A DNA stretch of 45,480 nt, from assembly GCA_016785955.1 (NCBI GenBank), contig JAEUWH010000063.1, positions 1 through 45,480 on the forward strand, read 5' to 3'. The notes beneath the pieces are model-generated. The model was given only the letters and a program-made list of their open reading frames with translations, searched no databases and was not told the origin of the DNA. The stretch's first letter is position 1; every line of letters begins with the position of its first letter. Below are positions 29,685 to 45,120 of the stretch, piece by piece. The stretch comes from Pseudobdellovibrionaceae bacterium. GTDB lineage: Bacteria > Bdellovibrionota > Bdellovibrionia > Bdellovibrionales > Bdellovibrionaceae. The translations under genes were made by a program, and so were the position numbers.

Positions 29685-30695
29685 ATGAAGTTGCAGTTCC
29701 CCCCTTTCCTTTTTTTTGTATTGGTCTTTAGTTTTTTTTCGCTGTTTGCCTCTGCGAATGAAAACACTGATGAGATTGAATCTGTTCGAAAAGAGGGACG
29801 TGTCTATTTTAGTGACACAGAAGCTATCACAGAAAAAGGTGATAGATACATAATTCAAGATAAGCCCAACGATCCCGAACTACTCGCACAATTTGAAGCT
29901 ATGTCGCCCACAGAGCAGGAAACATTTTATCGGCGTCGAAATGAAATTTTAGCAGGAATTATTGATAAAGCCGCCAGCGACAAACAGAAAAACTTTCTAG
30001 GAAGGTACACGATCATTAAAGACACGGTTGTCAAATTTGTTACTAGGAAAAACCAGTCTAAAAATGGAAAAATGACACCTGAAGATATTCTGCAATTAGG
30101 CAAAGATCAGGTACAAAGCTTGATTACCAATATCGAAAACGAGCTATGGCGATCGAGCAAAGTGATAGGAAATACAAATGTGAAAGGTAAGTCATTTACG
30201 ATCACAGGTGCTTTTGGCTTTGGTCTTGATCGTACAGGATTTATGCAAAATTGGGGTTTGGGTATTGGTTACTATAAAAATGAACTGACAGGAGATAAAT
30301 ACACAGAATTATTTATTATCCGTGAACGCTTTCAGAAAACATTCACCTATATGGCGGCGATGTTTGGAGGAGTTCGAGTTGGTTGGTTAGATTGGAGAAG
30401 CGAAAAATCTGTGAATTGGAATAATGAAAATGAGACAGATTGGCAGCATGGAAAAAGTCTGCGCACAAAAGGCACGGTCAATGGAACAGGTGTCAGTTTA
30501 CCTTTGATCCTTCCGTATATCTATCGGGCACAAGCTGAACTTTCTATGACAACCAGACTTGGTGTCGACCTTTTGGATATCCCTTTGCCCTGGCAAACAA
30601 TGCTTCAAGTGTATTTAACCGATACTAAGAAAAGATATCTTCGTTTTAACCGTCCGGGTCGGCAAAGTCTTTGTCGCAATTTTTATCATCAGTAA
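29685..30695 (+). CDS. Exported hypothetical protein with C-terminal CxxFY tail
   Basis: A signal peptide (MKLQFPPFLFFVLVFSFFSLFASANE) is followed by an acidic helical segment (about 30-150) and a beta-rich C-terminal half (SFTITGAFGFGLDRTGFMQNWGLGIGYYKNELTG, FTYMAAMFGGVRVGWLDW, TTRLGVDLLDI) with Gly/aromatic alternation reminiscent of outer-membrane strands. No family is recognised. The last residues are GRQSLCRNFYHQ, so a cysteine seven residues from the end starts the CxxFY tail shared by four other exported proteins of this island. No strong ribosome site precedes the ATG. Confidence 0.7.
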   Translation: MKLQFPPFLFFVLVFSFFSLFASANENTDEIESVRKEGRVYFSDTEAITEKGDRYIIQDKPNDPELLAQFEAMSPTEQETFYRRRNEILAGIIDKAASDKQKNFLGRYTIIKDTVVKFVTRKNQSKNGKMTPEDILQLGKDQVQSLITNIENELWRSSKVIGNTNVKGKSFTITGAFGFGLDRTGFMQNWGLGIGYYKNELTGDKYTELFIIRERFQKTFTYMAAMFGGVRVGWLDWRSEKSVNWNNENETDWQHGKSLRTKGTVNGTGVSLPLILPYIYRAQAELSMTTRLGVDLLDIPLPWQTMLQVYLTDTKKRYLRFNRPGRQSLCRNFYHQ

Positions 30696-30755
30696 TGGCG
30701 ATTTAGCGTCATTTTTATCGTGAAGACACTAAAGTATTTTTTGTATGACTTACCT

Positions 30756-30773
30756 AATAGGTTGGTAATGACA
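30756..30773 (+). promoter_or_regulatory. Dispersed AATAGGTTGGTAATGACA motif ahead of the 30869 gene
   Basis: This 18-base sequence occurs exactly on the other strand at 43963-43980. TTACC six bases to the left forms a short inverted repeat with the GGTAA core. It lies 95 bases before the YiiX-like gene in an otherwise gene-free 173-base gap. Confidence 0.6.
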
Positions 30774-30868
30774 CAAATGACATTGGCAGGGGCAAAAGAT
30801 TGAAAGTTATACTGTCTATTTCCCAAACACTACTGGAAAGGCCTGTAACGATTTATAGTGTTTAAACT

Positions 30869-32365
30869 ATGAACGCAAATGCTGTACGGTTTTACTTCGT
30901 TGTTATTCTTTTTTGGGTATACTCTGCTAGCGCCGCAACGGGTGTTTACGCGACGGCACCGTTGTCTCAAATTATCAACTCTGTCGAATTTAAATTGGCT
31001 GTTACTGATTTCGAGGATGTGGCATCTTTACGAAGTCATTTCCAAAAAACAACGGAGACTTTGTACACACTGAATCCTTTTCAATCGTTGAACTCTGTTT
31101 CGCAGGCGGAAATCGAAATTTTTTCGAAGAAACTAAAAAGCGTGAAAGAGGCCGTAAAACAACTAACCTATGCTTTTTCGGCACAAACCACGGATTCATT
31201 CGCCAGAGATCAGTTGGCGGATGATGCAAAATCTTTCCTTACAGCCATTCGTGTTTTTGAAGACAGAATGCTGGAATGGCGATTCTTTAAATTAAACCCC
31301 CCAAAGACAATATTTAAAAGGATCGCCCCTTTTAGAGGTCACCAGGCCATAGACCAAGTTCGTGATGGTGACACCTTTGGGCTGAGCGACTTACGCGCCG
31401 GAGACGTAATTGTTACTCGTTCGTCTAGACTTTTAAGTTCGATGATTGCGCGAATGACTGATGCGCCAATGAGTTATTCGCATATGGGTATTGTTGTCGT
31501 CGACCCTAAAGACGGGAAGAAATATATTATTGATTCTAATTTAAATGCCGGTTTCCAGAAGGTCTTGTTAGACGAAAGTTTTTACAAAGACGAGGTCCGA
31601 GTGGCTGTGTACCGTTCAAAACAGGGGTTTTTAGGGAGCTTGGCTTCGGAATATGGACGCTTTGCCTATGAGTCTAATCTGCAAAAAGGCACTCCCCTTG
31701 AGTATGATATTACGATGTCTTTAGAGCCTAACTGTAAATTCTATTGTTCTAAATTTGTTGCATGGACTTACAATTCTGTCTCTGATAAGGACTCTATACC
31801 CCAGTACCCCAGTAAGTTACAGGGTAATAATAAGAATTTTATAGCGGCACTGGGTGTTCCGTCATCCGCTCGGTATACATTTGCTCCCTCCGATATCGAA
31901 TTAGATTCTATGTTCGACATAATTTATGAATACAGAAACCCAGGGCTGACAGCTCAATCACGGTTAGAAGAATTAGTCGTAGATAAAGTCTTGTATTGGA
32001 TACGTACCGAAGGTTTGGAAATTAGTCCGAGCACTCTGACCGAGCGTGGGGCCAAGGTTGCCATTAAAGTCTATCAAATTCCTTCCATTCGTCGCGTGTT
32101 AAATAGTCTGAATATGCATTTGAATCCAAATCTGGATCCAAAATTTTTATCGGTTGGGATCACAATGAAATTACTAGTTGAAAGTATACGGGCGAAAGTC
32201 GAAAAGCTGGTAAAAAATAGCGTAACGGGTGTGTATTCAAGTCCATCCGAGATTTATCAAATGATTGATGAGGCCCGGCTAGAGACTCCAAATTTTGCAC
32301 GGCTTTTGAAACCGCGAAAGCAGAATGCGTGCATGCGATTCTATACTAGTTACAACGTTCGTTGA
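30869..32365 (+). CDS. YiiX-like permuted papain-fold hydrolase with CxxFY tail
   Basis: A signal peptide (about 1-23) precedes a helical region (about 30-150). The catalytic domain shows LRAGDVIVTRSSRLLSSMIARMTDAPMSYSHMGIVVVD, with His205, and CKFYCSKFVAWTY, with Cys293. This His-before-Cys order is typical of YiiX/YebB-like permuted NlpC/P60 enzymes, which act on amide or acyl bonds in the envelope. About 180 further helical residues follow. The end, RKQNACMRFYTSYNVR, carries the CxxFY tail. It is encoded between the 29685 gene and a convergent hydrolase gene that overlaps its last 20 bases. Confidence 0.8.
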   Translation: MNANAVRFYFVVILFWVYSASAATGVYATAPLSQIINSVEFKLAVTDFEDVASLRSHFQKTTETLYTLNPFQSLNSVSQAEIEIFSKKLKSVKEAVKQLTYAFSAQTTDSFARDQLADDAKSFLTAIRVFEDRMLEWRFFKLNPPKTIFKRIAPFRGHQAIDQVRDGDTFGLSDLRAGDVIVTRSSRLLSSMIARMTDAPMSYSHMGIVVVDPKDGKKYIIDSNLNAGFQKVLLDESFYKDEVRVAVYRSKQGFLGSLASEYGRFAYESNLQKGTPLEYDITMSLEPNCKFYCSKFVAWTYNSVSDKDSIPQYPSKLQGNNKNFIAALGVPSSARYTFAPSDIELDSMFDIIYEYRNPGLTAQSRLEELVVDKVLYWIRTEGLEISPSTLTERGAKVAIKVYQIPSIRRVLNSLNMHLNPNLDPKFLSVGITMKLLVESIRAKVEKLVKNSVTGVYSSPSEIYQMIDEARLETPNFARLLKPRKQNACMRFYTSYNVR

Positions 32366-33290
32366 TAAAGCTGACGATCGTAGTTTTTAATACCTTTGTT
32401 TGTTCTATTGATTTCCAATCAAATAAATTGTGCCCGCGTCCCATTTCTAGTATTTGTACGTTGGGGCCCGAAAGTTTTTTTCTAATTATATCAGTATCAA
32501 CAACATCATCATCGGGGGCGTGGATTACGAGGATTTGGTTTTGCAAGTTAGACCAATCTGTTGTTCTAAAGATACGCGTGATTTCTAGAAACTGATTTAT
32601 AGATGCTGAATCGATAAGTGGACTATTCATAGGATGGGTCTCAGGTGGGTACACAGTGTAAAAATCGTTAGTCCCTAGGCCAACCAAAGCCCCCAGGATA
32701 GGGTATCCCAGACGACCTGATAAAATTCCCGTCCACTTGTTTTTTAACGCAAAATTTGGAGAGACAAGAACTAAACACGCTTCCGGATCATATTTTTGAG
32801 CAATCATAAGTGAGATCCCGGCACCGGTGCTTAAGCCAATATAGATACGTTTTTTTCCAAGTTCTTTCGAGTAAGACCAAATGTCTAAGACGCTATAAAA
32901 CCAATCCGAAACGGTCACCGATTGAATTTTACCATCGAGCAATCCGTGGCCAGGCAAGCGTGCATAAAACAAGTTTGCATCGATATCATTTTGGAGTTCG
33001 GAAATAAATGGATCCATTTCGCTACGATTTCCAGTAAATCCGTGAATAAACGAAATCACTTTATCGGCAGGAATATTTTGGCGATTTTTACTCCAAATAA
33101 TTATTTGTTGGGTGCCTTCCTTTAAAGGTAATCGAGACATCTCGGGGTTCGAGAGATTGATCTTACTAGGCTGAACTTTCTCAAAGAACTCGACCGAGTT
33201 ATAGGGAGCTTCATAGATAGTAAATGCAGGAATGATGAAAATAAGCGAGCCAAAAAAAATAAACAGCAGAGACAGTATTAAGAACTTCAT
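32346..33290 (-). CDS. Alpha/beta hydrolase (serine aminopeptidase S33/lysophospholipase-like), membrane-anchored
   Basis: Residues about 3-24 are a signal anchor. The hydrolase core has the oxyanion HGFTGN (83-88), nucleophile GLSTGAG (Ser154), the acid in VIHAPDDDVVD and the histidine in MGRGHNLFDW near the end. This matches monoacylglycerol lipase or lysophospholipase-like S33 enzymes. The active site should face the periplasm. Its 3' end overlaps the convergent YiiX-like gene. It ends SFINERCN and lacks the CxxFY tail, which separates it from its plus-strand neighbours. Confidence 0.85.
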   Translation of the reverse strand: MKFLILSLLFIFFGSLIFIIPAFTIYEAPYNSVEFFEKVQPSKINLSNPEMSRLPLKEGTQQIIIWSKNRQNIPADKVISFIHGFTGNRSEMDPFISELQNDIDANLFYARLPGHGLLDGKIQSVTVSDWFYSVLDIWSYSKELGKKRIYIGLSTGAGISLMIAQKYDPEACLVLVSPNFALKNKWTGILSGRLGYPILGALVGLGTNDFYTVYPPETHPMNSPLIDSASINQFLEITRIFRTTDWSNLQNQILVIHAPDDDVVDTDIIRKKLSGPNVQILEMGRGHNLFDWKSIEQTKVLKTTIVSFINERCN

Positions 33291-33692
33291 TGAACTAGAT
33301 TAAAATTTGTAGGTGGGATTGCCAAATACTTTCTAGAGCCACCCTAGCCCTATTGACGATTTTTCGCGACCGCGAAATCTTAACCATTTTTTAAAGAGAT
33401 CTTAAAAAATCTCTACGTACGTAATTTGTTACAGGATTTGTTTTCCAAGCTGAGGTGTCATTAATTGTCGAATTTTTCAAATAACCTGCTGAGTGTAAAT
33501 ATATCCATAGCACGGCGTAAAAATATTCGACAGAGGAATAAGAAGACTGTTCAAAAAATTGACGTGAAAGTCTTTCATGTACATCGGCATACACTGGAAA
33601 ATTTACCGTGAAATAATGTAAATTTCTTCAATAAATTGATTGTGGAATCTATCGAGCACGTCCGTTCCATCCGATTTCCCAATCGAAAGAGT
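33291..33692. other. Divergent intergenic region with palindromes
   Basis: The region holds a near-perfect palindrome TTTCGCG-ac-CGCGAAA (33362-33377) and an A/T stem TTTTTTAA (33387-33394)/TTAAAAAA (33402-33409) seven bases apart. A 67-codon minus-strand frame (33391-33594, GTG start) has plausible composition but no ribosome site, so I do not call it. Promoters for both flanking genes must lie here. Confidence 0.5.
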
Positions 33693-35768
33693 ATGAAAAT
33701 GTCTGTGAAAAAACTAGCCGTATTTTTGTTCGTATGTTTTGGCTGGCTGACACCACTTACGGCGGTGGCCGATCCTCAAAAAATAGCTATTTTCTATTCG
33801 AGCATGGGAAATGGCCATAAAGGTGCTGCTGACGCCATTGAAGCTGAAATTAAAGTCAAATCCCCCGAGGCTATAGTTCAGCAAGTTAATGTCAGGGACT
33901 TTATGAATCCAAGATGGGAAAAAATTGACCGTAGACTTTATTGGGCAATGTTTAAACATTCGGCTTATTTAATCGATCGATTTTTTGAAAGCTTCATCAA
34001 AAATGGAACTAACACAGTAGACTTTAGCAAGTTTATGAATGGCCGTGATTATAATACAGTGGAAATTGCCAAATGGCTGAAAGAGTTTAAACCAGACACG
34101 ACGATTGCAACTCACTATGGTAGCGCCATTGTATTGGCAAACGCTCGCGAGCAAGCCGGCATTAAAACAAGATTAGTTTGGGTTTTTACAGATTATTTAG
34201 AGCATTTTTTCCCTCGCATATCACAACGTACTGATATGACATATGTGCCGCACTCAAGCCAGATCGAGTATTGGAAAAGCTGGGGCGTAGACGCTGACAA
34301 GGTGGATACGTCTTTGATGCCACTTGTTCTTCCTAAAGCTGATGATTCGGCAAAACCTGTCGAGCCTGGAACTTTGGTAGTGACGATGCAAGGTGGTTTA
34401 GAAGGACTCAAAGATAACGTTAAAGTTATTAAATCTATTGTTCAGAATAACCCTGGAAGAAAAATGGTTATCAACGCATTTGTTGGTAAACAGGAGAGTG
34501 AGTATAAACGCGTACAAGATTATGTGAAAACAATTCCAAGCAATGTTGAAGTCAGACTCTTTGGATTTGTGCCACGAGGACAGGTGATCGCGCACATCAT
34601 GCAAGCAGATGTTTATGTCGTAAAAGGTGGTGGCCTGTCGCCGATGGAAGGTTCAGTTTTAAATAAGCCAACTATTTTGGTTGATGAATTCGGAAGCCAT
34701 GAACGTGAGCATTCTAAATTTTTTGCTAAAAATGGCTTAGCTGAACGAACAATGGATTCAAACGAAGTCGGCAAGTTAATCGGAACACTTTTGGCAGATA
34801 AAGAAAAACTTGAACGGATGAGTGCCAATCAGAAAGAATTTTCTCAGGCTGTGGGTCTTGATAAAATTGTCGAAGCCGCATTGACGCCATTCGATCCAAA
34901 TGCCAAAGCTGAAATAGAGTTGATTCCAATGGGTAAGTTTCAAGGCAGAGAAGTCAATGGACAAGCTCAGTCATTAGAAAAATTGAATAGAGATTACCCT
35001 TCAAATTTCGAAATTTTATTGGGATATCCGGTTTCTAAGTCAGGAAGATATTTGGATATGGGTGGAAAATCAAATCCATTTGGTCACATAGGAATTCGTA
35101 TCGAAGACAAAGTGTACACGGTTAATCACCGCTCAAAAATTGGAGAAGGACAGCTGCATGAAATCTCGTCGCTGGCTCAATACTTGTATTCAACTCAGGC
35201 ACGGCCAGAGATATTTGAGGGATATGATTTTGTGGGTGTTCATGGCCAAGCATATGGTCGGGAGACAATTAGCTTGCGTATGAATTTACCGGCTGAAGAT
35301 CTTAGGAAGATGCTGACAGAGCTTGATCTAATTGAGCAAGAATTTAAACAGAAAAAAACCGGCTATGATGTTAAAGCATGTAACTGTTCTACGTTGATTG
35401 ATCGTGTTCTTGAGAAAGGAAATCTCATCGAAAGTCGACAAAAGGGAATTGCGTTTCCCATCGATGTGTTTGAGTCGGCATTGTCTCGTATCAAAGATAG
35501 AGAAATCAAGACGACAACGATTCGTTATGCGCAAATCAAAGGAGCTCAAAGTGGATATGTATCGACGGATGTTCCACTTACCTTTAAAAGATTGTTTCGG
35601 TCGGTGGCGCGAATCATGAAAAATATGGTGGCTCCAAATTCTCTTTTTTATCCAAGCAAGCCAGAAGCGCAAGTCGAATATTCGCCAGGACGAGATACTT
35701 TGTATTATGAAAATTTTAATCGAAAAGAATTAGGAAAGAGTTGTTTATGGTTTTATACAAAAAAATAA
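33693..35768 (+). CDS. Exported MGDG-synthase-like glycosyltransferase fused to papain-like domain, CxxFY tail
   Basis: I start at the ATG at 33693 (GAAAGAG upstream); the frame opens at 33636. MKMSVKKLAVFLFVCFGWLTPLTAVADP is a cleavable signal peptide. Residues about 28-385 are a GT28/monogalactosyldiacylglycerol-synthase-type glycosyltransferase: IAIFYSSMGNGHKGAADAI, VVTMQGGLEGLK and VVKGGGLSPMEGSVLNKPTILVDEFGSHEREHSKF. Residues about 440-610 look like a papain-type fold with FGHIGIR (His465) and ACNCSTLIDRVL (Cys563, Cys565), close to DUF4105. The end GKSCLWFYTKK has the CxxFY tail. An exported sugar-nucleotide enzyme has no obvious donor in the periplasm; action in a prey cell is conceivable but inferred. 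Confidence 0.75.
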   Translation: MKMSVKKLAVFLFVCFGWLTPLTAVADPQKIAIFYSSMGNGHKGAADAIEAEIKVKSPEAIVQQVNVRDFMNPRWEKIDRRLYWAMFKHSAYLIDRFFESFIKNGTNTVDFSKFMNGRDYNTVEIAKWLKEFKPDTTIATHYGSAIVLANAREQAGIKTRLVWVFTDYLEHFFPRISQRTDMTYVPHSSQIEYWKSWGVDADKVDTSLMPLVLPKADDSAKPVEPGTLVVTMQGGLEGLKDNVKVIKSIVQNNPGRKMVINAFVGKQESEYKRVQDYVKTIPSNVEVRLFGFVPRGQVIAHIMQADVYVVKGGGLSPMEGSVLNKPTILVDEFGSHEREHSKFFAKNGLAERTMDSNEVGKLIGTLLADKEKLERMSANQKEFSQAVGLDKIVEAALTPFDPNAKAEIELIPMGKFQGREVNGQAQSLEKLNRDYPSNFEILLGYPVSKSGRYLDMGGKSNPFGHIGIRIEDKVYTVNHRSKIGEGQLHEISSLAQYLYSTQARPEIFEGYDFVGVHGQAYGRETISLRMNLPAEDLRKMLTELDLIEQEFKQKKTGYDVKACNCSTLIDRVLEKGNLIESRQKGIAFPIDVFESALSRIKDREIKTTTIRYAQIKGAQSGYVSTDVPLTFKRLFRSVARIMKNMVAPNSLFYPSKPEAQVEYSPGRDTLYYENFNRKELGKSCLWFYTKK

Positions 35769-36817
35769 TATCCTTTATATTTGCTAGTCACATAGCTTGT
35801 GCAGCGATTGATGACCTTCATTTTGATCTTAAAATGCCGATGGGTCCTTTTAAAGGTGAGTCACTCGCTAGAAAAAGTGATCGTCCAGTGATCAACTTAA
35901 GAGACGAGGAACTATCCGCGCGTTCATTTGATGGCGACGTTAAGGACAGTACGGATTCTTCAAAGTCAAAAATTTTAGTGGCGAATATTTTCCACAGACC
36001 ACATTTTTATGTGGCGAAGATTGACCTGACTAAAGTTAAAAATGTGTACTATCTGTTCGAAAAATTTATGCCGTTGGCCGCACACACTATGGTGCGATTT
36101 GAAATGGAACCTGGTCATGAAATCGAACTAATAGCAAAACTACCTACACAGCAAGAGTGGAAGGGTGGCATTAAGTATCATGAGCTAGAACAACCAATCA
36201 AAATTGCTGATCTAGTTATGTCGTTTGACTCGGAATGGGTTGAAGGCACCAAGGGAGCGTTTAATCCAATAAATGGTGTACGCGGACATTATACCAGCAT
36301 GTTTCGTTTTTTCTCGGTGCAAAGCTTTATAAAGTCTTTCTATTTGAGTCGCCCCTACCCTGTTGAACAATTTCGATTGAATTTGAAAGCCGAAGAGTCT
36401 GGTGCTTATTTAAGAATGTTACTTGATCGTTCTGCTTATCATGGTGTCGACAAAGGATTCAATACGTTCTGCAACAACTGCACAACTAATCCAATCGAAG
36501 TTTTGGAAGAGTCTATTCCAAAACGCGAAAAAGCAGGTTGGGCGCGAAGAAATGTGGACCGATTGTTTTTCAATCTTTTAGAAAAACACCCTAGCATTGT
36601 GCCAAGTGTTTTATGGTCTCGAGGCTGGAGAGATAAAGGCTCGCAAATCGAAAATTTAGAACGGGATCCTAAACTGAGGGCAGATTTCGATGCGGCTTTT
36701 GATGCTGGTTTAGAGCGTCTTTCTAAAATGCCAGTCGATTCGAAGAAATACAAAAAGACCAAAGAAAGTCTGATGAAATTTTCTTCCGGCAAAGCGTGTT
36801 TGTTATTTTATTATTAA
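35747..36817 (+). CDS. Exported DUF4105/Lnb_N-like papain-fold protein with CxxFY tail
   Basis: The ATG at 35747 follows AGGAAAG and lies within the last codons of the fusion gene, so the two are coupled. A signal peptide (MVLYKKIISFIFASHIACA) precedes a beta-rich N-terminal part and a DUF4105-like domain: NGVRGHYTSMFRFFSVQ (His181) and FNTFCNNCTTNPIEVLEE (Cys242, Cys245). DUF4105 domains form the catalytic part of Lnb, a lipoprotein transacylase of gram-positives, and occur widely in proteobacteria with unknown roles. The reaction here is unknown. The end GKACLLFYY has the CxxFY tail, only six residues long. Confidence 0.75.
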   Translation: MVLYKKIISFIFASHIACAAIDDLHFDLKMPMGPFKGESLARKSDRPVINLRDEELSARSFDGDVKDSTDSSKSKILVANIFHRPHFYVAKIDLTKVKNVYYLFEKFMPLAAHTMVRFEMEPGHEIELIAKLPTQQEWKGGIKYHELEQPIKIADLVMSFDSEWVEGTKGAFNPINGVRGHYTSMFRFFSVQSFIKSFYLSRPYPVEQFRLNLKAEESGAYLRMLLDRSAYHGVDKGFNTFCNNCTTNPIEVLEESIPKREKAGWARRNVDRLFFNLLEKHPSIVPSVLWSRGWRDKGSQIENLERDPKLRADFDAAFDAGLERLSKMPVDSKKYKKTKESLMKFSSGKACLLFYY

Positions 36818-36818
36818 G

Positions 36819-37715
36819 CTATTTTACCAAGAATTGGGCCAGCGATTGTATGTCGACCATGCAATGGTCCCCAAATTGAGGATGCCACTCGATGGATAAA
36901 TTCCGACTTTTAGCTCTTTCGATAAAGGTTTCAGTGGCATCGTAAATGCCCCACTCGTCATAAAGGGCTCCGCTGATGTAGAATTGTGATTCGTATTTTA
37001 CGTCATTTCGTTCGATCAAGCGCAGGGGGGCAAAGCGATCCCATTCCTTCTCGGATGCAAAGAAATTTCGACTTAAAACGATCGCCCTTAAGATATTTAT
37101 AAGTTCAGCGCCAGAGGTCTGCATAAATGAGTAAAGCTCGCTTAAGGAAGAATAAGGCGTTTCTTTATACATTACAGGACATACTGAAGCAATTTTACTG
37201 AATAGGCGTCCATGAGTTAGACCAGTAGCCAAAGAATTCATTCCACCCATGGAGGCGCCAAACAGAATGCGATGTTTTGGGGCCCCAACCATACTTTCAA
37301 TTCGAGGAATGATTTTTTCGATGACTAAGTCCATCAGACCACTAAATTGTTTTTCTCCTTTAGGGGTGAGAACCCAAACAGGTCCAAAAGAAAGGGTGAC
37401 TATGGTCGGTGGAATAATGGCATTTTGTTGCCAGTATTTTTGTACCATGGCTCCGTATAAATATTCAAAATTCCATATCATTTCGTTTTGGTCTTTTCCA
37501 TGAAGTGCGTACGCAATGTCGCCGTTGGTCTTACCGTCCGCTGGCGAATGAATACAGTACCGAAGGCCGCCTAGATCGGAAAAACTGCCACATTCTTTTC
37601 GTGAAGGAATAAATTCAGTAACCTTTTGACGGCCCAAAGGAGTTTTAAGAACAAAATGAATTCCAAAATAGGCAACGACCAACAAAACTGAAACGAGAGG
37701 AAGGTATTTTTTCAT
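36819..37715 (-). CDS. Esterase-like alpha/beta hydrolase, membrane-anchored
   Basis: Residues about 4-22 are a signal anchor. The 298-residue protein has a nucleophile elbow FGASMGGMNSLA (Ser155), an upstream ALHGKDQNE strand-turn, and a possible catalytic histidine in FGDHCMVDIQ near the end. This is the putative-esterase pattern (esterase D/ferulic-acid-esterase-like), with unknown substrate. It converges on the 35747 gene with one base between the stops. The ATG is preceded by a weak site, ten bases from the pectin-acetylesterase-like gene, so the two minus-strand genes form an operon. Confidence 0.8.
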   Translation of the reverse strand: MKKYLPLVSVLLVVAYFGIHFVLKTPLGRQKVTEFIPSRKECGSFSDLGGLRYCIHSPADGKTNGDIAYALHGKDQNEMIWNFEYLYGAMVQKYWQQNAIIPPTIVTLSFGPVWVLTPKGEKQFSGLMDLVIEKIIPRIESMVGAPKHRILFGASMGGMNSLATGLTHGRLFSKIASVCPVMYKETPYSSLSELYSFMQTSGAELINILRAIVLSRNFFASEKEWDRFAPLRLIERNDVKYESQFYISGALYDEWGIYDATETFIERAKSRNLSIEWHPQFGDHCMVDIQSLAQFLVK

Positions 37716-37724
37716 AGTATGTTT

Positions 37725-38717
37725 CTAGTGAGACTCGCCATAAACTTGTTTTACAAATCCGATGGCTGTAGACCCTTCCATCGATTTAAGCGAGTACTTT
37801 TCTTGAAATAGCAAAAAAATATGGTCGTCAGAATCATAGAGCCACATTTTGGTGTTAGGATAGCTTTTACATGTTTCAACTAAACCTTCTTCGCTGAGCA
37901 AAAGTTTTTTATGGTCTTCTTTAGAAATTAAGCCAAAATATTCGGACATAATTTGATCTTTTTCGCCATAAAGAAAACCTATTTTCCAATTTGAAAGTCT
38001 ATTTAGAACCGGTTTTATCCTGCGGGCAACAAAGCCATCATCATAGTCTATCTTAAGACCGATATCGTTGAACGCCTTTTTGAAGCTTGTTTTAGCATCG
38101 GCACTGAATTGACTCCAAAATCTTGGTCCAAAATGTAAGCCGGGGGAATCTGCAATCAAAGTCTTTTTTGCATTTGGATGGACGAATGTTTCAATATATT
38201 TAGCGTGCAGAAGGGTGCCGATGGCCCCAGCGGAAGATCCGACTAAGGCTAAGTCGTTTACAGCTTTAAAATTAATTATACCTGTTTGGGCCAAATATTG
38301 TATAGCAAGGCGAACATTTGTATGACCCATGTGTGTTACAGGATAGAGTTTATAATTTCCAATGTAATCGCCAGCAAACACATCACCTGTGCAGTAAGGA
38401 AAATAAATATTTGTATGATCAATGAACGGGTTCTCAGGATTATCTGAGTCCGAGAGCGCACCAAATGCTTTCAGCATCGGAACGGGATAAATCCAAGCAC
38501 GGTAAAGACAGGTGGTTTGATCCCAGCAGGCTCCGCCTCCCATAAACTCAATAACTAATTTTGATGGATCTTGATCGCGTACAAAAACACTGTAAGGCGA
38601 TCCATTTCCACATTTAGCACCAGGTATTTTAATGCGCTTCCATGTTGAAGCAAAACTTGAATGGCCGACAAGCACCAATAGAAGCATCATGCTCCAAACA
38701 CTAAATCCCCTCGTCAT
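37725..38717 (-). CDS. Pectin acetylesterase/Notum-family carboxylesterase, exported
   Basis: I place the start at the ATG at 38717, preceded by GAGGGG; the longer frame runs to 38783. A signal peptide (MTRGFSVWSMMLLLVLVGHSSFAS) leads to a PAE-family core: CGNGSPYSVFVR, LVIEFMGGGACWDQTTC (61-70) with the GGGAC oxyanion, PYCTGDVFAGD, LVGSSAGAIGT (Ser162) and LIADSPG. Members remove acetyl or acyl groups from pectin, glycans or, in Notum, lipid from Wnt. The substrate here is unknown. The location next to another esterase and a GH1 enzyme suggests polymer or lipid degradation. Confidence 0.88.
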   Translation of the reverse strand: MTRGFSVWSMMLLLVLVGHSSFASTWKRIKIPGAKCGNGSPYSVFVRDQDPSKLVIEFMGGGACWDQTTCLYRAWIYPVPMLKAFGALSDSDNPENPFIDHTNIYFPYCTGDVFAGDYIGNYKLYPVTHMGHTNVRLAIQYLAQTGIINFKAVNDLALVGSSAGAIGTLLHAKYIETFVHPNAKKTLIADSPGLHFGPRFWSQFSADAKTSFKKAFNDIGLKIDYDDGFVARRIKPVLNRLSNWKIGFLYGEKDQIMSEYFGLISKEDHKKLLLSEEGLVETCKSYPNTKMWLYDSDDHIFLLFQEKYSLKSMEGSTAIGFVKQVYGESH

Positions 38718-38861
38718 AGCAGTTCCCCTCAATTTAAAAACAACTATTACTAAATTTTGAAGGCAATCAAGCTGGGGTGTCAAACCTTTGAACGGCCTAG
38801 CTAGCTTTTTCCTCCACTGGTCTAGGAATTGCTAATATTGATACTCTACGAAGAGGTCCTA

Positions 38862-39950
38862 GTGGCGTTGAGGTTGATTCACTTTCTATTTGTTTTGCTT
38901 TCTGTTAAGACTGCGTACGCTAGTCAAATTGACAGTTTTCGTCAATGCCGCGATTGTTCTGCAGCAGAATTAGACATGTTTTTTGATACGTCTTCAGCGC
39001 CTGACACATCTTTTAAGCTGATTCATGCCCAAGGCTCGCTTGGGCCGGTGATTCTATTTCATGGTTTAACCGATTCTCCCTACTACATGAAAGATATCGC
39101 TGAGGTCTATTTTAGGATGGGATACGATGTGTATTCACCTTTAATGGAAGCACATGGTGCTGCCTACGGGGAACTCAGCACTATTCAAAATACACAATGG
39201 AATCAACAGGTAGAAAAATACATTTCGTTGCTGCATGGGCGGTACAAGCGCAAAGTTATTTTAGGTGGTTTTTCAAATGGTGGCTTAGTGTCGACGATTG
39301 CCACGATCGCTGCACCCACAAAAGACAAAATACTTTCACTGCTATTAATATCGCCAGCATTGGGTTTGCCGCCTAAAGCCTGGATTGCCTACAAGTTCCT
39401 AAAGGCTTTTGATAGACTGGCTAAAAAATTTGATATTCAGTCATTGTATGAACTGCGTAGAAAAATATGGAGTATGCCGGTAAAAACGTCCGAGTACGAA
39501 GATCCTCGTGGTCGAGTGCGTTCTCCGATTATGCAGCTTAACGGTCCATTCCAAGTCGCTCGTAATATTGAAATGCTAAACAGCATGAGCAGAGATAAAT
39601 CGATTGAGATACCGGTCACGGTTGTTTTAACCTCTGATGATACGACGATATCAATTCCAAAAGTGCTAGCTAAATTTAGAAGTCTTTTGGGGACAAGAAA
39701 GCATTTGGTATGGCTACAAAGTCCCAGTGCAAAAATGCCGTCGGTGTTGCATCGTCTGCCACCCGAGGAATTAACAATTGTAAATGTAGACCGAACGCTT
39801 TCGCACAGTATTACTCTACACAAGAGTGGCTTAACAATAAATGAAGATAACCCCGAGTTTAGTAGAGTCGCTGCCGTTCTTGAACACTCGTCCGTGCGAA
39901 AAAAAAATGAATGCACTAGCTTTTATTCAAGTATAGCGATGTCGAAATAG
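38862..39950 (+). CDS. Exported alpha/beta hydrolase (lipase/carboxylesterase) with CxxFY tail
   Basis: The start is taken as GTG at 38862, preceded by AGAGG; the frame opens at 38829. MALRLIHFLFVLLSVKTAYA is a signal peptide. The hydrolase has oxyanion HGLTDSPYYM (67-76), nucleophile GGFSNGG (Ser138), an acid in VVLTSDDTTIS and a histidine in RTLSHSITL. It is close to secreted monoacylglycerol-lipase-like esterases. Mature N-terminus has a CxxC (QCRDCSAAE). The C-terminus ends KKNECTSFYSSIAMSK, another CxxFY tail. It is divergent from the pectin-acetylesterase gene. Confidence 0.82.
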   Translation: MALRLIHFLFVLLSVKTAYASQIDSFRQCRDCSAAELDMFFDTSSAPDTSFKLIHAQGSLGPVILFHGLTDSPYYMKDIAEVYFRMGYDVYSPLMEAHGAAYGELSTIQNTQWNQQVEKYISLLHGRYKRKVILGGFSNGGLVSTIATIAAPTKDKILSLLLISPALGLPPKAWIAYKFLKAFDRLAKKFDIQSLYELRRKIWSMPVKTSEYEDPRGRVRSPIMQLNGPFQVARNIEMLNSMSRDKSIEIPVTVVLTSDDTTISIPKVLAKFRSLLGTRKHLVWLQSPSAKMPSVLHRLPPEELTIVNVDRTLSHSITLHKSGLTINEDNPEFSRVAAVLEHSSVRKKNECTSFYSSIAMSK

Positions 39951-44115: not shown

Positions 44116-45120
44116 ATGTTCAAGAAAATTGAAGAAAGTTATATTTTTCTAGTACGTTTGGTTGTTCCCCTATGTACGTTTTTTCCTTTCATTTCTGCTG
44201 GTGTCACTGACCAATGTCATTATTTCTATATTAGAAACTCACTTATGAAAGGCACTACGAGCAATGTTTTGAATTTAAAGCGTTATAGAGCCTCTAACAT
44301 GCCAGATATGGCTTCACTGCGGAACGCACCTAAAAATGATTATTCTCAATTCGTAGAAAATGATATCAAGCGATTGGACATCGGGATTAGATTGATGTCC
44401 CAGATTCCAGGCGGACATCCTGATTTTACACAGAATCTAGTTTTTGAATTTCATAGACATTACATGATCGCCAAAGCGAACTTGGAATCGTATCGAAGTA
44501 AATCGCAATTGTTTGATCTTACGGAACTTCAAGCTTTGGAAAAAAAGTTGAATGAATTCGAAAGTATTGCGGATGCGACGAAATATTTTGAAAAACTGGA
44601 AGCGGCGGGTTTCCGCCTGGTACCCAAAAGCACAGAAATAATTAAAGCCTCACTAGAGGCCTCGGAATTACAGACATTAAGCATTTTAAGGGAATCTTGG
44701 CATAGAGGTAAACAAATCATAGGAGATAGCATATTGGCCGGTCGAGATGACATGCAGCCAATTCAACGCAGGATTGTTAACTTTAAAGAACGACATGCTA
44801 TTAATGAGGATCTAGTTAAGTTTCTGCCTTTTGTAAATTCGTTTCTAAGAGATCAAATTCTTAAAAAATACACACCCGAGAAATATGATTTAGAGGCTGT
44901 CATCAAATTTGTGGATGAGATTTCCGTTTTCTTAAAATCTGATTTTTTTCAGTCTCTCCAAAATTTCAATAAAAGCAGCATTGTTCTGGGCGTACGCAGT
45001 GATGCAAAAGAACTTGATGTTAAAATCACGGAATTTAATGTGCTGGCGAGCCGTTTAATGGCTCCGAAGTTTCGAACTAGGCTGACTGTTGTCGGTAATG
45101 ACAGTAAGGACAGGCAGTAA
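44116..45120 (+). CDS. Exported helical protein with CxxFY near mature N-terminus
   Basis: The ATG follows AAAGGTGG. Residues about 10-29 form a signal peptide (FLVRLVVPLCTFFPFISAG). The mature protein begins VTDQCHYFYIRNS, which contains CHYFY, the same C-x-x-F-Y spacing as the tails of five exported proteins upstream, now at the N-terminal side. The remainder (about 300 residues) is almost all helical and charged, with FTQNLVFEFHRHYMIAKANLESY and LTELQALEKKLNEF. No family is recognised. The last codons overlap a cluster of GTAAGGACAG-type repeats, so the C-terminus may have been changed by repeat growth. Confidence 0.65.
   Translation: MFKKIEESYIFLVRLVVPLCTFFPFISAGVTDQCHYFYIRNSLMKGTTSNVLNLKRYRASNMPDMASLRNAPKNDYSQFVENDIKRLDIGIRLMSQIPGGHPDFTQNLVFEFHRHYMIAKANLESYRSKSQLFDLTELQALEKKLNEFESIADATKYFEKLEAAGFRLVPKSTEIIKASLEASELQTLSILRESWHRGKQIIGDSILAGRDDMQPIQRRIVNFKERHAINEDLVKFLPFVNSFLRDQILKKYTPEKYDLEAVIKFVDEISVFLKSDFFQSLQNFNKSSIVLGVRSDAKELDVKITEFNVLASRLMAPKFRTRLTVVGNDSKDRQ

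Follow-up and report, generated by a model that had tools for sequence, protein, structure and literature searches.

The CTERM signals (PEP-CTERM, MYXO-CTERM and GlyGly-CTERM) are short C-terminal signals that, together with a signal peptide, mark unrelated exported proteins of one lineage, and they share these properties with the element discussed here, a C-x-x-F-Y motif (hereafter the tag) carried by six exported proteins in a stretch of 45,480 nucleotides from a Pseudobdellovibrionaceae bacterium (assembly GCA_016785955.1, contig JAEUWH010000063.1, positions 1 to 45,480 of the forward strand; this whole stretch is termed the window). Unlike the CTERM signals, the tag has neither a hydrophobic helix nor a basic end, is built on a lone cysteine with an aromatic pair, and is also found at the mature N-terminus of exported proteins. 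A helix of the PEP-CTERM or MYXO-CTERM kind is absent, as an initial annotation of the window had observed: only 1–10 residues lie between the C-terminal motif and the stop in the tagged set, which leaves no room for a transmembrane segment and a basic end, and for nine tagged proteins no match to the NCBIfam CTERM models was listed at E values up to 1.

The PEXEL motif of Plasmodium and the RxLR motif of oomycetes offer a second comparison, in which a signal peptide combined with a short degenerate motif sends unrelated effectors into another cell. The host-targeting logic is alike, and some copies of the tag likewise come shortly after the signal peptide, but no membership is claimed, the tag being bacterial, cysteine-centred and placed at either terminus, with no cleavage at the motif known and delivery only proposed. 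The lipobox and the acylation carried out by LnsA and Lnb resemble the tag in having one cysteine near the mature N-terminus that could be modified; the tag cysteine, however, is not the +1 residue after the signal peptide, and the C-terminus is used equally. A lipobox, with the consensus [LVI][ASTVI][GAS]C, was rejected on the grounds that N-terminal tags such as NSCLRFY, SRCLRFY and LRCEAVF lie mostly 5–11 residues past the predicted cleavage site, and C-terminal tags at the wrong end. Two further candidates were set aside: the C-terminal domain of the type 9 secretion system is folded and spans about 80 residues, against 5–9 for the tag, and the C-terminal signal of outer-membrane beta-barrels does not suit a set in which most family-assigned proteins are soluble enzymes and the tag is not strictly terminal.

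Markers shared by polymorphic effectors are also described for the type 6 secretion system, among them RIX (PMC10435454) and WHIX (PMC12135965). Such markers (with MIX) resemble the tag in that one marker covers polymorphic effectors, and they differ in being folded domains for a contractile machine rather than short terminal peptides on Sec substrates. The CapCone-2 two-gene systems of the Lipocone superfamily comprise secreted effector candidates of Bdellovibrionota, the same phylum, accompanied by alpha/beta hydrolases, acyltransferases and barrels; they are defined by domains, and the accessible text makes no mention of a shared terminal tag (PMC12419801). Protein secretion by Bdellovibrio bacteriovorus has been called largely unexplored (PMC12622784), and the cytoplasmic contents of the prey are kept apart from the predator, which makes transport necessary (PMC2797640). 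No described signal of this form in Bdellovibrio was found in NCBIfam or in a literature search whose coverage left out bioRxiv and most subscription papers, and the tag looks like an undescribed address label for exported enzymes, which may lead them into prey. The question of how predators move enzymes out of themselves and across the inner membrane of the prey becomes directly testable with a tag that lists the cargo, and a sorting signal working at either end of a protein without a membrane helix would be unusual.

A cysteine motif at either end of exported proteins

Translation of the window bears out the initial annotation in its observations: five proteins with plausible signal peptides end in C-x-x-F-Y with 1–7 residues before the stop, and Pfam agrees with the families proposed for four of them (YiiX papain, glycosyltransferase–papain fusion, DUF4105 and alpha/beta hydrolase), the first protein having no match. 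The motif had been taken as purely C-terminal, which does not hold, since it also occurs at the mature N-terminus of many exported proteins, including a sixth protein of the window. The tagged proteins and their tags, the latter read from the translation, are as follows.

29685..30695, + strand: exported protein, fold not assigned, C-tagged; signal peptide MKLQFPPFLFFVLVFSFFSLFASA; no Pfam match
30672..30686, + strand: C-terminal tag CRNFY, then HQ and the stop
30869..32365, + strand: exported C92/YiiX permuted papain-like protein, C-tagged; PF05708, 3.2e-11
32330..32344, + strand: C-terminal tag CMRFY, then TSYNVR
33636..35768, + strand: exported fusion of a diacylglycerol-glycosyltransferase-like and an Lnb_N papain-like part, C-tagged; PF06925, PF00534, PF13387; NF010135, 8.4e-24
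35742..35756, + strand: C-terminal tag CLWFY, then TKK
35741..36817, + strand: exported Lnb_N (former DUF4105) protein, C-tagged; PF13387, 4.6e-11
36797..36811, + strand: C-terminal tag CLLFY, then Y
38829..39950, + strand: exported alpha/beta hydrolase, C-tagged; PF12146, 4.8e-09
39912..39926, + strand: C-terminal tag CTSFY, then SSIAMSK
44116..45120, + strand: exported protein, family not assigned, N-tagged (..FPFISAGVTDQ-CHYFY-IRNSL); no Pfam or NCBIfam match
44215..44229, + strand: mature-N-terminal tag CHYFY, 6 residues past the predicted cleavage site

The recurrence is beyond chance, as had been claimed for the window. Outside it, across 1.19 Mb of this genome, C..[FW]Y lies within the last 20 residues of 8 of 1,057 open reading frames (ORFs), more than ten times the 0.67 expected from the interior rate or the 0.60 from shuffled tails (at most 4 in 1,000 shuffles). 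All eight have a heuristic signal peptide, and one is a hydrophobic segment rather than a real tag, leaving seven. A positional test that included the window and used a stricter signal-peptide heuristic gave 10 C-terminal motifs on signal-peptide ORFs against 0.15 expected, 6 N-terminal motifs against 0.17, and 3 C-terminal motifs against 0.19 on ORFs lacking a heuristic signal peptide, with no protein tagged at both ends; the permuted control motifs (C..YF, the reversed motif, F..CY and S/A/K..FY) stayed near expectation. The enrichment at the C-termini of signal-peptide proteins that the initial annotation had proposed to look for is thus present. AT-rich DNA readily encodes FY and a terminal K or N, and the tails might on that account be a compositional artefact of stop-proximal codons, but the excess over shuffles and permuted motifs, the N-terminal copies and the conservation of the tag across genera in homologues that spell it differently render this scarcely credible.

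In a profile built from the tails, the ten best matches in the genome are ten true C-terminal tails, largely the profile's own training rows, with the CMRFY tail at 32330..32344 on top; the informative new matches (L144, L151, L159 and L160) rank lower. A DNA-level pattern for CxxFY was too degenerate to use. For the window's genome (G000), a catalogue drawn from stretches and profile matches counts 18 or more C-terminal tags and about 12 N-terminal ones, as a lower bound.

Pooled N- and C-terminal tags of the genus give the consensus N-[SAQM]-C-L-[KRS]-F-Y-[SGK]. The basic residue that had been pointed out ahead of the window tails does precede them, but in the light of this consensus it is not the key feature. 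Among positions that played no part in the CxxFY selection, N stands at −2 in 30 and L at +1 in 28 of 65 tagged proteins (close homologues included), and the 5–9 residues of the tag are conserved without conserved flanks. In 54% of the 65 the tag cysteine is the only one in the mature protein, as it is in all N-tagged CHAD members but one. The tagged proteins contain 0.17 other cysteines per 100 residues, versus 1.01 in 407 untagged signal-peptide ORFs. The disulfide idea listed in the initial annotation is therefore, in its intramolecular form, not a general explanation; of the interpretations offered there, a shared fold-independent signal of the sorting or secretion type on exported proteins is the one that these sequences strongly support.

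The glycosyltransferase fusion, labelled by Pfam as an MGDG-synthase/glycosyltransferase plus Lnb_N, separates tag from fold. Within the order its homologues have both signal peptide and tail; outside Bdellovibrionota (Zoogloea, Aromatoleum, Synergistaceae, Syntrophaceae and others) they have neither, and the tail is therefore not part of the domain, the alternative to which the initial annotation had also drawn attention. For this family, then, tag and signal peptide are seen together only inside the phylum. Homologues of the protein at 29685..30695 in two genomes (G005 and G002) retain the tail cysteine despite diverged flanks, those of the C92 protein at 30869..32365 in G001, G004 and G005 end in NSCLKFYK, and a paralogue of the hydrolase at 38829..39950 in the window's genome (G000:C89, L160) ends in VKSCLLFYSK. 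A few tagged proteins do have other cysteines and some families are conserved up to their ends, as would be expected if each tail were local to its own fold or formed a disulfide within it, but about half of the tagged proteins are without another mature cysteine, dozens of unrelated clusters share the tag, and the fusion homologues outside the phylum end without it, so that we regard such a structural role as very improbable.

Lineage-specific spelling across Bdellovibrionota

A refined profile run over 60 relatives gave 4–15 matches in each of the six genus genomes (6/6) and 0–3 in each of the 54 others, the latter mostly short random frames. Within the genus, 14 further C-terminal tags were confirmed, all on signal-peptide ORFs, and the tagged proteins fall into 58 mostly unrelated BLAST clusters, a few of which are chance matches. 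Homologues recovered by whole-protein similarity rather than by the tag carry it, in other genera, at the same end in another spelling, a pattern followed by the ABC1, AAA+/M41, glycosyltransferase-fusion and CHAD families. The N-terminal occurrence, the lineage versions and the phylum-wide occurrence are what the initial annotation had missed.

Each genus has its own spelling, with CxxFY in this one, RCExVF in likely Bdellovibrio and NRCADL[LW] elsewhere. Exported ABC1/UbiB-like proteins end in VRCEMVFN, LRCEAIFL, SCKSLF or SCQRIF; exported ClpA-like double-AAA proteins with an M41 domain end in RCEALFN, SCKKLFN, RCADLWS, SCADLMKR, TCADELK and others, these variants spanning at least eight families of the phylum with the tag cysteine as the invariant column of an otherwise unconserved tail alignment; and the N-terminal tags of CHAD proteins read NSCLRFY, SRCLRFY, EICAQVF and LRCEAVF. 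In the families found by homology, tyrosine occupies +4 in 21 of 21 members from this genus versus 2 of 35 elsewhere (uncorrected for shared ancestry), four unrelated families having changed the spelling of this position together. Such a coordinated change over unrelated families would be the signature of one receptor or enzyme per lineage. In another genome (G044:C6, L345 5134-5319) two adjacent, non-homologous genes carry NRCADLLSG at opposite ends: the C-terminus encoded by the AAA+/M41 gene is ..GANRCADLLSGKL, and the gene that follows starts, past its signal peptide, with ..VLSNRCADLLSGRDV. Six of the nine codons differ between the two copies, which therefore reflect selection on the peptide and no recent duplication of DNA.

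Outside this genus, few tagged proteins per genome were seen in the samples examined: a DNA pattern for RCExVF over the 60 genomes showed only a small excess above its control, from which few tagged proteins outside the genus are concluded, and with a CADLL profile no large set of tagged proteins came to light in other families. In this genus the tag picks out tens of candidate effectors in each genome, against a few in likely B. bacteriovorus; it offers a target for single-residue mutation, and its lineage spellings should lead to the receptor through co-evolution. As a separate observation, L151 (G000:C72; no Pfam match) and L318 (G025:C112) are homologues from two genera with AAACMKFYGH and GGGRCEAVFRNAGGF, respectively.

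Cargo enzymes and the proposed route

Envelope-type hydrolases form part of the tagged set (PLD, PhoD, GDPD, alpha/beta hydrolases, C92 and Lnb_N). Other members are exported forms of enzymes that depend on a cytosol for cofactors or targets, among them UbiB-like ABC1 kinase-like proteins and glycolipid glycosyltransferases, the latter fused in relatives to a PlsC-like acyltransferase domain. An RlmN/Cfr-like radical S-adenosylmethionine (SAM) rRNA methyltransferase with a signal peptide (L105 3885-5117, +, G000:C21; TIGR00048, 4e-23) ends with CLHFY and has its Fe-S cysteines as C-x8-C-x2-C instead of C-x3-C-x2-C; an exported protein with a RelA/SpoT synthetase domain (L039 18349-19509, −), possibly an alarmone-synthesising effector, has CLYFY at its mature N-terminus; an exported 914-residue Fic-domain protein (L198 5053-7797, +, G001:C67) keeps an intact HPMVDGNGR and carries N-terminal CQSFY; and the tagged ClpA/FtsH-like AAA+/M41 proteases have intact Walker A and HEAGH motifs. 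The periplasm is without ATP, GTP or SAM, and enzymes of all these cytosol-dependent types are not expected to be active there. Established biochemistry would thus make delivery into the cytoplasm of another cell the most economical explanation for exported enzymes with cytosolic cofactors or targets. The initial annotation had raised delivery to prey as a possibility; the enzyme repertoire adds support to it, and it remains a proposal.

We infer that CxxFY is one lineage's version of a terminal recognition tag that would be read by a receptor and commit Sec-exported enzymes to an outward route, likeliest into the prey cytoplasm, an interpretation for which we hold the balance of belief to be even. 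The general form would be x-C-x-x-[F/L/V/I]-[Y/F/L], at the C-terminus or mature N-terminus of Sec-exported proteins of Bdellovibrionota. An N-terminal signal peptide would carry the protein over the inner membrane, after which the exposed tag, one free cysteine with two hydrophobic or aromatic residues, would be bound by a lineage-specific receptor or enzyme and perhaps chemically linked through its cysteine; this binding would commit the protein to a dedicated exit route, probably ending in the prey cytoplasm, given cargo that often needs ATP, GTP, SAM or activated sugars and acts on cytosolic targets. We advance more tentatively the broader proposal that Bdellovibrionota possess a dedicated route for Sec-exported effectors into the cytoplasm of another bacterium, with an either-terminus cysteine tag co-evolving with a receptor in each lineage; AAA+ proteases, Fic, RelA/SpoT and RlmN-like proteins, UbiB-like kinases and lipid enzymes could, with similar reserve, be named as its cargo. 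The receptor, the use of the thiol and secretion itself are, like delivery, inferred.

Two explanations that keep the tagged enzymes with the predator have to be weighed against this route. In the first, the terminal cysteine would bear a lipid or another covalent link (S-acyl, thioether or glycolipid), fixing enzymes to the predator membrane or surface. Such modification would fit one conserved cysteine with hydrophobic neighbours at either end, other cysteines being rare, and two of the tagged families, C92 and Lnb_N, are distantly and weakly related to LnsA and Lnb, enzymes of lipoprotein N-acylation, but the N-terminal tag cysteines fall outside any lipobox, we know of no bacterial enzyme that lipidates such a C-terminal cysteine, and RelA/SpoT, Fic, RlmN-like or AAA+ enzymes, if anchored, would be without cofactors outside the cytosol; we consider anchoring unlikely. 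In the second, a mixed disulfide or groove contact with a periplasmic scaffold or chaperone would store or assemble the enzymes in the predator envelope. Although a receptor groove would suit the lone cysteine and aromatic pair, the placement at either end and the coordinated lineage spelling, no scaffold candidate was found and docking alone does not explain the cytosol-type enzymes, which makes it quite unlikely.

Several points weigh against the outward route itself. The PLD, GDPD, PhoD, alpha/beta hydrolase and C92 members would be able to act in the envelope or periplasm with no need to reach a cytosol, and neither a receptor nor a translocation machinery was found. In 400 kb sampled from a likely B. 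bacteriovorus genome (G035, which like G010 we take to be this species), tags are few and there is no bulk enrichment, although the species is an efficient predator. A simple heuristic, not SignalP, was used to call signal peptides, and the untagged ORFs with which the density of other cysteines is compared include membrane proteins. Bdellovibrio-like bacteria are a mostly predatory group, but predation by this genus is assumed from relatives, its named genomes being metagenome-assembled.

Neighbouring and variant sequences

The tail is absent from the interleaved minus-strand hydrolases at 32346-33290, 36819-37715 and 37725-38783 and from the GH1 protein; the gene at 37725-38783 (−) encodes an untagged exported protein of the pectinacetylesterase family (PF03283) lying among the tagged genes. 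The start of the Lnb_N gene at 35741..36817 overlaps the 3' end of the fusion gene (33636..35768), and the hydrolase at 38829..39950 likely starts at a GTG at 38862. AlphaFold models of two window proteins are poor, with a mean predicted local distance difference test score (pLDDT) of 40 and 42.5. The weak similarity to LnsA and Lnb concerns the window proteins at 30869-32365 (C92) and 35741-36817 (Lnb_N), which might target cysteine-linked lipids.

A FeeM/GNAT-like ORF in the window's genome (L042 5656-6642 and L158 1498-1683, −, G000:C19) has the N-terminal tag CLKLY; after it, an overlapping frame encodes a 61-residue stretch that ends in NQCVEFYKM. This is a frameshift or an assembly error and may represent a double-tagged protein. 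The internal CNSFYGS of L092 13125-14525 and L093 3792-5177 was left uncounted because it lies within the conserved part of that family. Some YiiX/C92 paralogues (L055-L068) end without a cysteine, in SLFHNFFHP, YRFHNFFRSAEINKE or NTFHSYFRENK, and these tails could be a histidine variant of the tag or unrelated to it.

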